DNA of 64,000 bases, taken from NCBI RefSeq assembly GCF_020171465.1, contig NZ_JAIUZR010000003.1, positions 930,001 through 994,000 of the forward strand. Direction: 5' to 3'. Numbering within the stretch: position 1 is the stretch's first letter; every line of letters starts with the position of its first letter. This DNA is from Lutimonas saemankumensis. Its GTDB lineage: Bacteria; Bacteroidota; Bacteroidia; Flavobacteriales; Flavobacteriaceae. This document shows, piece by piece, positions 27,997-32,106 of this stretch. The notes beneath the pieces were generated by a model. The model saw nothing but the letters and a program-made list of their open reading frames with translations, was not told the DNA's origin and did no database searches. Position numbers and translations under genes: made by a program.

Positions 27997-28042
27997 TTTT
28001 GTTTAACTTTTTTGCTTTATAGTTAAACAAAACATATCTTTG
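27997..28042 (+). promoter_or_regulatory. Promoter inside an 11-bp perfect inverted repeat (likely TetR operator)
   Basis: TTG (28012-28014), a 20-bp spacer and TATCTTTG (28035-28042) make a full consensus promoter. TTTTGTTTAAC (27997-28007) and GTTAAACAAAA (28022-28032) are perfect inverted repeats with a 14-bp spacer that bracket the -33 box and reach the -7 box. The TetR-family gene starts 17 bp after the -7 box, so autorepression is the simplest reading. Confidence 0.7.
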
Positions 28043-28058
28043 ACTAAAATTAAGAGAT

Positions 28059-28715
28059 ATGGCACGCAAGAAAAAAATTAACAAAGAAGACATCTACACA
28101 TTTTACATGAACTATTATCTTGAAAATGGTCGAGCTCCATCTTCAGCCTTTGAACTGGCAAAATTGCATAATTTTGATGAAAAGGACTTCTACACTTTTT
28201 TCGGAAATTTGAAAACTGTTGAAAAATCAATTTTCGATTCCTTTTACGATCAAACCCTCCTACTATTGCAAAATAGTGAGGATTTTGAAAGTTTTGACGT
28301 CAGAAATAAATTGCTGAGCTTTTACTACACTTATTTCGAAATACTCACAGCCAACAGGAGTTTTGTCATGGCTCTTGCATCTAAAAGTACGTTCAAATAC
28401 GACCTGCTGAAGTTATTATCTTCCACAAAAAGGAAATTCTCATTTTTTGTTCAAAGACTCGAAATTGACAAATTTGATCTTAAGGACACAAAACTGGATA
28501 AGTTTATTGACAGATCCATTGAAGAAAGTCTGTGGGTTCAATTCGTAGTCTGTTTCAAATTCTGGCTTGATGATGAATCCGCCTCATTGGAAAAAACAGA
28601 CATTTTTATAGAAAAATCAGTAAACACAGGCTTTGATCTTCTTAATGTAAAACCCTTGAGGAGTATCCTGGACCTTGGTAAGTTTTTATACCATGAGAAA
28701 ATACACATGAATTAA
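28059..28715 (+). CDS. TetR-family transcriptional regulator
   Basis: 218 aa. The basic N-terminus (MARKKKINKEDIYTFYM) leads into a helix-turn-helix (about 27-60: SAFELAKLHNFDEKDFYTFFGNLKTVEKSIFDSF), followed by an all-helical ligand or dimer domain. First gene of a five-gene operon; its stop overlaps the next start by one base. The 11-bp inverted repeat over its promoter is the likely binding site. The inducer is unknown. I recall homologues next to ABC1 kinase, flavin reductase and photolyase genes in flavobacteria, which would suggest control by light or oxidative stress; that is recollection, not seen here. Confidence 0.85.
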   Translation: MARKKKINKEDIYTFYMNYYLENGRAPSSAFELAKLHNFDEKDFYTFFGNLKTVEKSIFDSFYDQTLLLLQNSEDFESFDVRNKLLSFYYTYFEILTANRSFVMALASKSTFKYDLLKLLSSTKRKFSFFVQRLEIDKFDLKDTKLDKFIDRSIEESLWVQFVVCFKFWLDDESASLEKTDIFIEKSVNTGFDLLNVKPLRSILDLGKFLYHEKIHMN

Positions 28716-30028
28716 TGAATACTATTGACAGAATACCCGTTGGAAAAGTAGAACGCGCCACCAACCTGGTTCAGACCGGAGCAAAAGTTGGAGTGAACTA
28801 TCTTAAATACTATGGAAAAAAACTAACCTCTAGTGAAAAAGAAGCAAGAGCCAGGTTAAATGAAGACAACGCTTCAGACATCTATGATGGATTAAAAAAG
28901 TTGAAAGGAAGTGCCCTTAAAGTGGCTCAAATGCTCAGCATGGAAAAAAGCATCATGCCGCAGGCCTATGTGGAAAAATTCTCGTTATCCCAGTTTTCTG
29001 TACCTCCATTATCCCCGGCTCTGGTTGTTCGAACTTTTAAAAAATACTTTGGCAGGTCACCACACGAGGTATTTGATGAATTTAATTCCAAATCCGTTAA
29101 TGCAGCGAGTATTGGACAGGTTCATCAGGTCAAAAACAATGACAAAATGCTCGCTGTTAAAATTCAATATCCCGGAGTTGCCGGAAGTATAAGTTCCGAC
29201 CTGGCCCTGGTCAAACCAATAGCCATTAAAATGTTCAATATTCAGGGCAAAGATTCGGACAAATATTTTAAGGAGGTTGAAGATAAACTCATTGAAGAAA
29301 CAGATTACAGACTGGAACTAAAACAATCCTTAGAAATGGCGAAGGCATGCGGTCACATTCCAAACTTAAAGTTTCCTGATTACTACGAGGAATTTTCATC
29401 TGAAAAAATCCTTACTATGGATTGGATGTCAGGGGAGCATCTGTCTGAATTTGTAAAGCATGAGAATGATCAATCGGACTTAAATGTTTTGGGACAGGCC
29501 TTATGGGACTTTTATATGTTTCAAATTCACAAGTTGAAAAAAGTTCACGCAGATCCTCATCCCGGTAATTTCCTGATTTCAAGAGATAAAAAGTTAATCG
29601 CGCTTGATTTTGGTTGCATCAAACAAATTCCTGATGACTTTTACAATCCATATTTCGAGTTAGCCAATAGAGAAAATCTGTCAAACCCGGCATATTTTAG
29701 AAACAAACTATTTGAACTTGAAATTCTGCTGGAGGATGATTCAAAGGAGGAAATTGAATTTTTTACTGCGATGTTCCATGAATTGCTGACAGTTTTTACC
29801 GAACCCTTCCAATCCGAATTTTTTGATTTTTCAAGGAGTACGTTTTTTGATAAAATCAGTGATCTGAGTGAGAAATACAGCAAGAACACTGAGCTGAGAA
29901 AAATGAATGCCAACAGAGGATCCAAACACTTCATCTATATGAATAGAACCTTCTTCGGGCTATATAATCTGATGTTCGATCTAAAGGCTAAAAATGTAGA
30001 GATTAACCGCTTCAATTCATTTTCATGA
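28715..30028 (+). CDS. ABC1/AarF/UbiB-family atypical kinase
   Basis: 437 aa. Kinase-like motifs: ALKVAQMLSMEK (the KxGQ motif of the family, here KVAQ with Ala for Gly), the Ala-rich loop NAASIGQVHQV, the ATP-contacting Lys in LAVKIQYPG, the catalytic VHADPHPGNFL and the metal-binding ALDFGC. UbiB/COQ8 proteins are ATPases that support isoprenoid quinone synthesis, though this shorter branch lacks a C-terminal membrane anchor as far as I can see. It is coupled to the TetR gene (1-bp overlap) and to the flavin reductase (4-bp overlap). A role in quinone or other lipid redox chemistry is inferred. Confidence 0.88.
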   Translation: MNTIDRIPVGKVERATNLVQTGAKVGVNYLKYYGKKLTSSEKEARARLNEDNASDIYDGLKKLKGSALKVAQMLSMEKSIMPQAYVEKFSLSQFSVPPLSPALVVRTFKKYFGRSPHEVFDEFNSKSVNAASIGQVHQVKNNDKMLAVKIQYPGVAGSISSDLALVKPIAIKMFNIQGKDSDKYFKEVEDKLIEETDYRLELKQSLEMAKACGHIPNLKFPDYYEEFSSEKILTMDWMSGEHLSEFVKHENDQSDLNVLGQALWDFYMFQIHKLKKVHADPHPGNFLISRDKKLIALDFGCIKQIPDDFYNPYFELANRENLSNPAYFRNKLFELEILLEDDSKEEIEFFTAMFHELLTVFTEPFQSEFFDFSRSTFFDKISDLSEKYSKNTELRKMNANRGSKHFIYMNRTFFGLYNLMFDLKAKNVEINRFNSFS

Positions 30029-30666
30029 GATCGTTTACTAAATATGATTTGAAAGAGATGGAAAGGTTGTATAAAATAAACCTTATAAACTCTGCTTCTG
30101 GTTTTAAATCTGCAAACCTTATCGGCAGTATAAGTAAATCAGGTAATGGTAATGTTGCCATTTTCAGCTCCGTCATCCATCTCGGTTCTGATCCTGCTTT
30201 GCTTGGGTTTGTAAGCCGACCTGTTTCCGTACGTCGGAATACTTACGACAACATTAAAGAAACAGGAGTTTATACCATTAATCATATTTATGAAGACATC
30301 ATTGAAGATGCCCATCATACGTCAGCAAAATACGATGCGTCGATTTCAGAATTTACCATGACGGACCTTTCAGAAGAATTTAAATCGGGATGCCAGGCAC
30401 CTTTTGTAAAAGGTGCGCCCGTTCAAATGAAAATGAAATTTCTTGAAGAAGTAAAACTAAATTTAAACGGAACCTTGATGATCATTGGGGAAATTCAGGA
30501 GTTGTTCGTTGATCAAGACATTTTAAAAGATGATGGTTTGATAAACCTAACGGAAGCTAAGGTTGTGGCCTTAAATGGTCTTGACCATTATACGATTCCG
30601 CAGTCGGAGAAACGTCTTCCCTATCAGAGACCCAAAATATCGAATCAATTAATAAAAGAAACATAA
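30025..30666 (+). CDS. Flavin reductase-like FMN-binding protein
   Basis: 213 aa. The flavin reductase fold is shown by NLIGSISKSGNGNVAIFSSVIHLGSDPALLGF and RRNTYDNIKETGVYTINHI, which line the FMN pocket. Proteins of this family bind FMN and use NAD(P)H, or act as stand-alone split-barrel oxidoreductases. It overlaps the kinase gene by 4 bp. A 64-bp gap with a weak inverted repeat (AATGCT...AGCATT, 30691-30716) precedes folE. In this operon it may supply reduced flavin to an unknown monooxygenase or reductase. Confidence 0.85.
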   Translation: MRSFTKYDLKEMERLYKINLINSASGFKSANLIGSISKSGNGNVAIFSSVIHLGSDPALLGFVSRPVSVRRNTYDNIKETGVYTINHIYEDIIEDAHHTSAKYDASISEFTMTDLSEEFKSGCQAPFVKGAPVQMKMKFLEEVKLNLNGTLMIIGEIQELFVDQDILKDDGLINLTEAKVVALNGLDHYTIPQSEKRLPYQRPKISNQLIKET

Positions 30667-30730
30667 ACTTTATACCTATTTATATTAATCAATGCTTTGC
30701 TAGAAAAGACAGCATTAAAAAAAGACAATT

Positions 30731-31426
30731 ATGAAAACAAATGAGCCCCTATTTACCGACGGAACTTCTGCTTTAAAGATTTTGGACCACAATGAAATTG
30801 GCGACAATCACATGATGACCAGTTTGGATACCCCAATGAAAGATTCTGCTTTTGATATAAGCGATGAGGAAAAAAAAGAGAAAATAGCCTTTCATTTTAG
30901 TGAAATCATGGAAACTTTAGGCCTGGACCTGACGGATGACTCACTTCAGGGAACGCCTGACAGGGTGGCTAAGATGTATATAGAAGAAATTTTTTCAGGA
31001 CTGGATCCAAAAAATAAACCAAAAGTTGCTTTGTTCGACAACAAATACCAATACGATCAGATGCTTGTTGAAAAAAATATCACTTTCTATTCCAATTGTG
31101 AACACCATTTTGTTCCCATTATCGGAAAAGCACATGTGGCATATATTTCTTCGGGAAAAGTAATCGGGCTTTCCAAATTAAACCGCATCGTTCAGTATTA
31201 CGCAAAAAGGCCTCAGGTTCAGGAAAGGCTGACCAATCAGATAGCCAATGAACTTAAGAATATCTTAGGAACCGAGGACATTGCTGTCATTATCGATGCC
31301 AAACATCTTTGTGTTTCCTCAAGAGGCATAAAAGATGACAGTTCCACCACAGTTACTGCCTATTACGGAGGAGCCTTTGAGAAACATGAGAAAATAGTTG
31401 AGCTTCAAAATTTTATCCAATCATGA
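30731..31426 (+). CDS. folE: GTP cyclohydrolase I with N-terminal extension
   Basis: 231 aa. The catalytic domain begins near residue 45. The zinc/active-site residues are present in SNCEHHFVPIIGKAHVAY (Cys and two His) and KHLCVSSRG (second Cys). It opens the GTP ring to make dihydroneopterin triphosphate, the first step to folate and to biopterin-type pterins. About 45 extra residues at the N-terminus (MKTNEPLFTDGTSALKI...) have no known function. Placement in a TetR-kinase-flavin reductase operon rather than with folate genes suggests a dedicated pterin product. The next gene overlaps its end by 4 bp. Confidence 0.93.
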   Translation: MKTNEPLFTDGTSALKILDHNEIGDNHMMTSLDTPMKDSAFDISDEEKKEKIAFHFSEIMETLGLDLTDDSLQGTPDRVAKMYIEEIFSGLDPKNKPKVALFDNKYQYDQMLVEKNITFYSNCEHHFVPIIGKAHVAYISSGKVIGLSKLNRIVQYYAKRPQVQERLTNQIANELKNILGTEDIAVIIDAKHLCVSSRGIKDDSSTTVTAYYGGAFEKHEKIVELQNFIQS

Positions 31427-32106
31427 AAAAAGTACTCCTTGTCGGAGCAAGTAAGGGAATAGGCAAAGCCCTGGCGCAAATCATGAGTGAATCCTATGAA
31501 TTGATCTCGATAAGCAGGTCATCTTTGGATGATCTTGATAATGTTTCGGTCCATTATTCCTGTGACATTTTGAAGGATGACCTACCGGACATTGAGAAAC
31601 TGGATGGTCTGGTCTATTGTCCGGGAAGTATTAATCTAAAACCGTTTACTCGATTGTCCGAAACAGATTTTAAGGAAGACTTTGAGATCAATGTATTGGG
31701 TGCGGTAAAGGTGATTCAAAAATACCAAAAAGCTCTTAAAAATGGATCCGATTCTTCGGTGGTACTTTTCAGCACAGTTGCGGTGAAAATGGGCATGCCT
31801 TTTCATGCCAGTATAGCGGTTGCGAAAGCTGGAGTAGAAGCACTGGTTAAGTCTTTGGGGGCAGAGTTATCACCTGGTATAAGATTCAATGCTATAGCCC
31901 CCACAATCACGGATACCTCCTTAGCCGAAAAAATTTTAAGGAACGATGCCATGAAAGAAAAAATGCGAGAGAGACATCCTATGAAGTCCTATCTGGAACC
32001 TAATGATGTGGCTGAAATGGCGGAGTTTTTGATTTCAGACAAAAGTAAAAAAATATCAGGCCAGGTATTTGAATTGGATTGCGGGATAGTTACCTTTAAG
32101 ATTTAG
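31423..32106 (+). CDS. Short-chain dehydrogenase/reductase lacking the catalytic Tyr
   Basis: 227 aa. The Rossmann motif LLVGASKGIGKALA and a central LVYCPGSINL (in place of NNAG) mark the SDR family. The usual YxxxK motif is replaced: in HASIAVAKAGVEAL the Lys is kept, but the residue four before it is Ile, not Tyr. FabG in this window (36215-36961) has the canonical YAASKAG at the same place. The protein may be a non-classical reductase or a binding protein. Last gene of the operon, overlapping folE by 4 bp, so it could act on a pterin. Confidence 0.85.
   Translation: MKKVLLVGASKGIGKALAQIMSESYELISISRSSLDDLDNVSVHYSCDILKDDLPDIEKLDGLVYCPGSINLKPFTRLSETDFKEDFEINVLGAVKVIQKYQKALKNGSDSSVVLFSTVAVKMGMPFHASIAVAKAGVEALVKSLGAELSPGIRFNAIAPTITDTSLAEKILRNDAMKEKMRERHPMKSYLEPNDVAEMAEFLISDKSKKISGQVFELDCGIVTFKI

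Follow-up and report, generated by a model that had tools for sequence, protein, structure and literature searches.

A TetR-ABC1-flavin reductase-FolE-SDR operon of Lutimonas saemankumensis is predicted to be induced by light within a CarH/LitR regulon

Why would a TetR-like regulator, an ABC1-family kinase, a flavin reductase-like protein, a GTP cyclohydrolase I (FolE) and an SDR protein be encoded together in one compact operon? These five genes occupy positions 28059-32106 of a 64,000-nucleotide stretch of the Lutimonas saemankumensis genome (positions 930,001 to 994,000 of contig NZ_JAIUZR010000003.1), which we refer to in full as the window. An earlier note on the sequence of the window described them as a candidate light- or redox-controlled pterin system. 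The list of open reading frames (ORFs) bears out the arrangement that it gave, with gene overlaps of 1, 4 and 4 bp, a single 64-bp gap and a promoter in front. We predict that the operon is a light-induced unit of a CarH/LitR regulon and part of a sunlight-protection programme, a reading to which we assign a probability of about 0.7. Light control is supported by sequence because the promoter carries a box that accompanies the gene of a CarH/LitR-type regulator. The light part of the earlier proposal thereby gains support from a box shared with litR; its redox and reduced-pterin parts are conjectural.

A flavobacterial-type promoter at 28012-28042 on the forward strand consists of TTG (28012-28014), a 20-nt spacer and TATCTTTG (28035-28042), and fits the flavobacterial TTG/TANNTTTG consensus described in the accessible text of PMC3587595. 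The predicted LitR/CarH box, TGTTTAA-N16-TTAAACA, is a perfect inverted repeat at 28000-28029, with no strand assigned, that covers the promoter TTG (-33 element). Its arms are perfect over 12 bp (27997-28008 and 28021-28032), and it is the sole strict site in the window; the earlier note did not include it. No riboswitch or other known RNA was found at Rfam gathering scores between 27800 and 32400. The box recurs in related loci, which were the 80 best of 578 ABC1 relatives in genome contigs and are hence close relatives. Across 80 sequences (79 loci and the window) the box upstream of tetR is exact in 64 and has at most one mismatch in 75, compared to 0.0 and 0.02 loci, respectively, in a mononucleotide shuffle control. 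With a Y/R form of the box and a spacer of 16 or 17, 69 of the 79 loci have an exact site before tetR, seven have one mismatch, one has two and two (L054 and L079) have none. A TAnnTTTG-like element lies 35 bases from the box start at 46 of 63 tetR sites and 34 bases from it at another 10 (56/63 together).

In most of the other loci these genes flank a larger island. Its members include NmrA/DUF2867 (65 of 80 loci), photolyase cluster 3 (61), u142 (59), DUF2805 (50), GPx (44), a DPRP photolyase (43), TspO (42), a second photolyase-family cluster, cluster 14 (41), and cluster 16 (33), which has no Pfam match and which we read as SRPBCC-like. Exact boxes are found upstream of u142, the first gene in the part of the island that ends in FolE and SDR, in 48 of 59 cases, upstream of a DUF2911 gene on the opposite strand at the tetR side in 10 of 52, upstream of FolE in 5 of 55, and upstream of DUF2867 in 3 of 65, these being loci with an inserted histidine kinase. 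No exact box precedes the control genes of the same loci, namely ABC1 (0/80), SDR (0/60), photolyase cluster 3 (0/65), GPx (0/44), TspO (0/42) and cluster 16 (0/33). At island sites other than tetR, the TAnnTTTG-like element is 35 bases from the box start in 35 of 60 cases and 34 bases from it in 9 (44/60 together). The three loci with a histidine kinase are from Gelidibacter (L017, L038 and L058); a 1267-amino-acid sensor-kinase-like ORF and a response regulator-like ORF lie between ABC1 and DUF2867, and the box precedes DUF2867.

The genome has three MerR_1 matches, one of which, with a frame of 320 amino acids, is the CarH/LitR-type MerR-B12 regulator that we call LitR (contig 6, G000:C6:199165-200049). 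Its MerR_1 and B12-binding_2 domains score above the cut-off, the B12-binding match is weak, and its best solved relatives are the CarH-type structures 3whp and 5c8d. It carries both the Wx9EH motif and the ExHExG motif, the latter of which we take to be the lower-ligand His motif of the regulator. The litR gene heads a cluster encoding an amine-oxidase/crtI-like protein, phytoene synthase, an FA_hydroxylase protein and lycopene cyclase, with a divergent fasciclin gene. A strict box overlaps the start of litR, and the predicted operator is thus common to the operon and litR. We examined 30 LitR loci, those with the best scores among 53 listed matches; an exact Y/R box is present in 25 (shuffles 0.0), and 29 encode a regulator with Wx9EH. 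LitR lies within 13 kb of ABC1 in five genomes of the family labeled f1 (G002, G017, G096, G047 and G086). These features resemble the B12-dependent CarH/LitR light regulons of Myxococcus, Thermus, Bacillus and Pseudomonas, which likewise have a MerR plus B12-binding regulator beside carotenoid genes and the Wx9EH motif. The available portions of PMC8156234, which includes Wx9EH, and PMC9304148 describe CarH structure and operators, and in the latter the half-site TTAAACA fits the TnnACA element of CarH operators, which also lie over the promoter. The present system differs in its half-sites, which are inverted and 23 bp apart and not tandem, and in the contents of the operon (TetR, ABC1 and flavin reductase); binding of LitR to the box and a response to light are predictions.

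Within its own genome the operon has company. The strict box occurs seven times, compared to 0 occurrences of the reversed-pattern control: at this operon; at litR; at u142 on contig 1; at DUF2452-DUF2805-amine oxidase on contig 3; twice between a fasciclin gene and RibD_C-photolyase-DPRP; and once within a 469-amino-acid ORF, which we take as chance. Matches to PF03441, the photolyase family, are located at C4:494400, C3:382984 and C3:384971. On contig 4, a 426-amino-acid photolyase with 61% and 53% identity to island clusters is encoded directly after a DUF2867 gene, and on contig 3, a 372-amino-acid FAD_binding_7 protein and a DPRP protein are encoded beside RibD_C and fasciclin genes, at the locus with two boxes. 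No relative of photolyase-island clusters 3, 12 or 14 is present among the ORFs of the window. The genome holds the photolyase island in scattered pieces. The statement in the earlier note that there is no photolyase therefore applies to the window and not to the genome, in which photolyase-family genes lie at one locus with boxes and at another without. Its suggestion that the core set has a job of its own is weakened, because PF03441 genes exist elsewhere in the genome and their contig 3 locus carries two boxes; the five genes resemble a piece split off from a photoprotection regulon, and the unit that persists is TetR-ABC1, not all five.

The position of the box invites another interpretation, that it is the operator of the neighboring TetR, by which the operon would regulate itself, with a small molecule or a redox signal, and not light, as the input. 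TetR autoregulatory sites usually lie directly before tetR, where 75 of 80 sequences have the box with at most one mismatch. The two interpretations differ in which gene the box should follow across genomes. In 17 LitR-positive genomes of family f1, 88 strict boxes were found compared to 13 in the reversed control, whereas 15 LitR-negative genomes of family f4 had 7 compared to 7 (Fisher 0.003 for the contrast between the families). An exact box is present in the LitR locus of eight of nine genomes that have LitR and lack ABC1, with the proviso that TetR was sought only via ABC1 and a lone TetR is possible in these genomes. Conversely, the box is missing at tetR in all six LitR-negative genomes that keep TetR-ABC1. 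Among f1 relatives it is found at tetR with at most one mismatch in 11 of 13, one of them with a spacer of 17, and G002 and G076 are without it. Across genomes the box accompanies LitR, not TetR-ABC1. In addition, a spacer of 14-16 bp is long for the two half-sites of one TetR dimer, which also counts against TetR. We rejected TetR as the less likely binder of the box, given that the box follows LitR, and we consider autoregulation by TetR an unlikely explanation of the operon.

We also inspected which genes adjoin the box in relatives, excluding tetR and litR sites. The inspection covered 42 of the listed sites in 40 regions, one of them the ORF-internal site of the window's own genome, and left out the sites in G002, G017, G034 and G076, some in G041 and G066, and all seven sites of family f4. 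Genes were labeled by BLAST, and rhodopsin and blh by Pfam. By our count, 24 of the 42 sites have a recognized first gene within 250 bp, encoding a fasciclin-like protein in 10, proteorhodopsin or blh in 4, a flavin reductase in 3, DUF2452 in 2, an SRPBCC-like protein in 2, and DUF2867, photolyase or u142 in the rest. Fasciclin-domain proteins, the commonest neighbors, are found at L199, L200, L202, L206, L210, L215, L219, L225, L230 and L234, and further ones lie at boxes in L094:5374-6003 and L142:3174-4997. In L226, L232 and L235, a flavin reductase gene stands behind its own box and is followed in all three by a DPRP or cryptochrome-like gene. In L204:1247-2962 and L231:1252-3018, divergent proteorhodopsin (Bac_rhodopsin) and blh (BCD) genes have two boxes in the interval between them.

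The proteorhodopsin sites suggest a wider role for the box. Proteorhodopsin is encoded in 21 of 98 genomes of our wider sample, which was an even draw of genomes at the order level, and is not encoded in the window's genome. Nine of the 21 genes have a box with at most one mismatch within 300 bp (six exact), including 9/9 in families f1 and f6; for one measurement, L253 in G086, the frame used was a 298-amino-acid ORF on the opposite strand from the rhodopsin match, probably a divergent neighbor. We speculate that in Flavobacteriia a single B12-type photoreceptor, acting through a shared 30-bp inverted box, controls together its own gene with the neighboring carotenoid genes, several photolyases, the TetR-ABC1-flavin-pterin operon, fasciclin surface proteins and, where present, proteorhodopsin and the retinal-making blh, and so joins light harvest to damage repair; we give this broader proposal even odds. 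If true, it would identify what regulates the response of proteorhodopsin expression to light, the control of which in flavobacteria is described as needing further work in the accessible text of PMC3587595. A literature search, which covered few subscription papers, found no report of a LitR/CarH operator from Bacteroidota, and as far as that literature shows, the Bacteroidota LitR box and the place of this operon in its regulon are new. An odd operon would thus become a testable prediction with a defined DNA box, a defined photoreceptor, a list of targets and a candidate regulator for proteorhodopsin. The prediction also offers a possible reason for the joint occurrence of UbiB-like, flavin, pterin and photolyase genes in marine flavobacteria.

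Several observations weigh against assigning the operon, and the genes around other boxes, to a LitR regulon. In family f6, all 11 ABC1-positive genomes have LitR and none has a box with at most one mismatch at tetR, and the genome G081 has LitR and no box site. Twelve of the 21 proteorhodopsin genes lack a box, all of them in families other than f1 and f6 (0/12 with a box), and 18 of the 42 inspected sites adjoin no recognized island or light gene, 6 of these being inside ORFs. Within the window's genome, the enrichment disappears when up to two mismatches are allowed (16 sites compared to 21 in the control), the photolyase-DUF2867 locus on contig 4 has only sites with three mismatches, and the boxes upstream of the crtI-like and 607-amino-acid fasciclin genes each contain one mismatch. 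The CarH operators studied in the available portion of PMC9304148 are tandem 11-bp direct repeats, in contrast to the inverted half-sites 23 bp apart described here. Finally, ExHExG is kept in only 16 of the 30 LitR proteins, and B12 dependence may for this reason vary among them. One of the 18 unrecognized sites, L223:662-2010, precedes a gene for peptide-methionine sulfoxide reductase (MsrA), followed by folE.

Under LitR control, the operon would be off in the dark, with the photoreceptor bound to the 30-bp box across the -33 region and RNA polymerase kept out, and would be turned on in the light by release of LitR from the box. We infer the binding of LitR to the box and the dark repression, as well as all of the downstream biochemical roles that follow. 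The products could support photorepair and the repair of photo-oxidative damage. The TetR-like regulator (28059-28715, forward strand, as are the other four genes) has the C-terminal domain TetR_C_23 (PF17931, 9.9e-39), the only match; no DNA-binding domain was called with Pfam or NCBIfam. It may tune a sub-circuit. The ABC1/UbiB-family atypical kinase/ATPase (28715-30028; PF03109, 3.2e-52) is COQ8/ADCK3-like, has COQ8A/ADCK3 among its solved relatives and, in the alignment, conserves the KVAQ, AASIGQVH, AVK, HADPHPGN and DFG stretches; it might act on membrane quinones or lipids. The flavin reductase-like protein (30025-30666; PF01613, Flavin_Reduct, 3.4e-16) is a split-barrel protein predicted to bind flavin mononucleotide, with 3fge as its closest solved relative (6.2e-53). 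We propose that it supplies reduced flavin to photolyase-family enzymes encoded elsewhere, because flavin reductase genes are paired with DPRP or cryptochrome-like genes at the three boxed loci above and one follows a photolyase gene in Vibrio pelagius. FolE (30731-31426), with PF01227 and NCBIfam FolE both above the cut-off, could raise pterin flux, replacing folate destroyed by light and feeding a folate antenna. A light island that unites ABC1 and GPx with GTP cyclohydrolase I may recall three defenses of animal cells against lipid peroxidation.

The last gene encodes an SDR protein (31423-32106; PF13561, 1.2e-39) in which I131 replaces the Tyr of the YxxxK motif, and when it is aligned to 1cyd and 2nm0, the Tyr of both falls in the same column. 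Among 57 aligned sequences, for which 56 of 60 relatives were used after a filter on length and identity, this column contains Val in 33, Ile in 23 and Thr in 1, and the Lys four residues on is kept in 57/57. Because the canonical catalytic Tyr is absent from all 57, the family is, judged by its residues, not a standard reductase. The loss of this residue weakened the SDR protein as a candidate FolM-type pterin reductase.

This residue bears on the idea of the earlier note that the operon is a dedicated pterin-cofactor system, in which FolE and the SDR protein would produce a reduced pterin that serves an enzyme from another locus; the phenylalanine hydroxylase-like protein of the genome would be one example. 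The earlier note reasoned that without a second folE in the genome this one would serve folate only; the genome has two copies, the operon FolE being the second, as well as two PTPS-family genes and a phenylalanine hydroxylase-like Biopterin_H protein. A precedent exists in Pseudomonas, where the accessible text of PMC9758184 describes light induction of photolyase, SDR and folE genes, with phrB, folM and folE near LitR genes induced in Pseudomonas mendocina. There, a light-induced folM-folE-folX (tetrahydromonapterin) operon likewise pairs a second FolE with an SDR beside a light regulon, and folM and folE increase 1.6-3.3 fold in light. The Lutimonas operon differs from it in the SDR without catalytic Tyr, in the addition of ABC1 and flavin reductase and in the lack of folX: no FolX-like gene is present among the operon ORFs, to which the search was limited, no genome-wide search for FolX having been made. 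There is also no FolM model among the 25 NCBIfam matches shown. Moreover, FolE is found in only 3 of 30 wider TetR-ABC1 loci, and the TetR-ABC1 pair is therefore not a pterin unit. We consider a dedicated pterin-cofactor system improbable.

The gene neighborhoods of relatives indicate how this combination relates to the island. Linkage of the five families is conserved beyond what chance would give, as the earlier note had expected, with all five together in 40 of the 80 related loci and TetR directly upstream of ABC1 in 79. The link to photolyase and cryptochrome genes that it described also held, with at least one photolyase-family gene in 63 of 80 loci; in 37, such genes lie between flavin reductase and FolE. 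The exact five-gene order without insertions is found in two of 80 (L003 and L005, Lutimonas halocynthiae), and L030 has one extra ORF. Of the 98 genomes in the wider sample, 31 have an ABC1 gene (E<=1e-60). In the 30 neighborhoods besides that of the window, TetR-ABC1 is present in all 30, photolyase cluster 3 in 18, DPRP in 13, SDR in 10, and FolE and flavin reductase in 3 each. Because all 30 keep the pair while SDR, FolE and flavin reductase are found in few, TetR-ABC1 is the durable unit and the set of five is the form that it takes in one lineage. PF03441 genes are present in 31/31 ABC1-positive genomes compared to 33/67 ABC1-negative genomes (Fisher 1e-7), and in 31/31 compared to 15/21 among genomes of at least 2.5 Mb, as read from the tables (Fisher 0.003). 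As read from the coordinates, 19 of the 31 have a PF03441 match no more than about 12 kb away from ABC1. The accessible text of PMC5932025 describes a flavobacterial photolyase proximity cluster enriched in proteorhodopsin-bearing marine Flavobacteriia, and in the 40 loci the five families sit in such an island. The operon of the window differs in standing alone, with relatives of DUF2867-photolyase, DPRP, DUF2805 and u142 scattered over the genome.

That the operon is a decaying remnant of the island, specific to its lineage and no longer functional, is very improbable: although the compact form is rare (2/80 loci) and the ABC1 match in L004 stops at residue 357 with no recognized flavin reductase, FolE or SDR downstream, the five frames of the window are intact with 60-82% identity to Lutimonas proteins, its promoter box is perfect, and L004, as part of a metagenome bin, may be misjoined. 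L004 is otherwise the closest locus, with 99% (TetR) and 97% (ABC1) identity, and may be rearranged or misassembled.

Plasmid records contained no ABC1 relative at 1e-40, and an SDR relative on a Spirosoma plasmid has no island around the gene. Flavin reductase relatives were found in 22 plasmid records, and the three regions inspected contain an SDR-flavin reductase pair in two Pseudoalteromonas and a photolyase-flavin reductase pair in Vibrio pelagius (L096).

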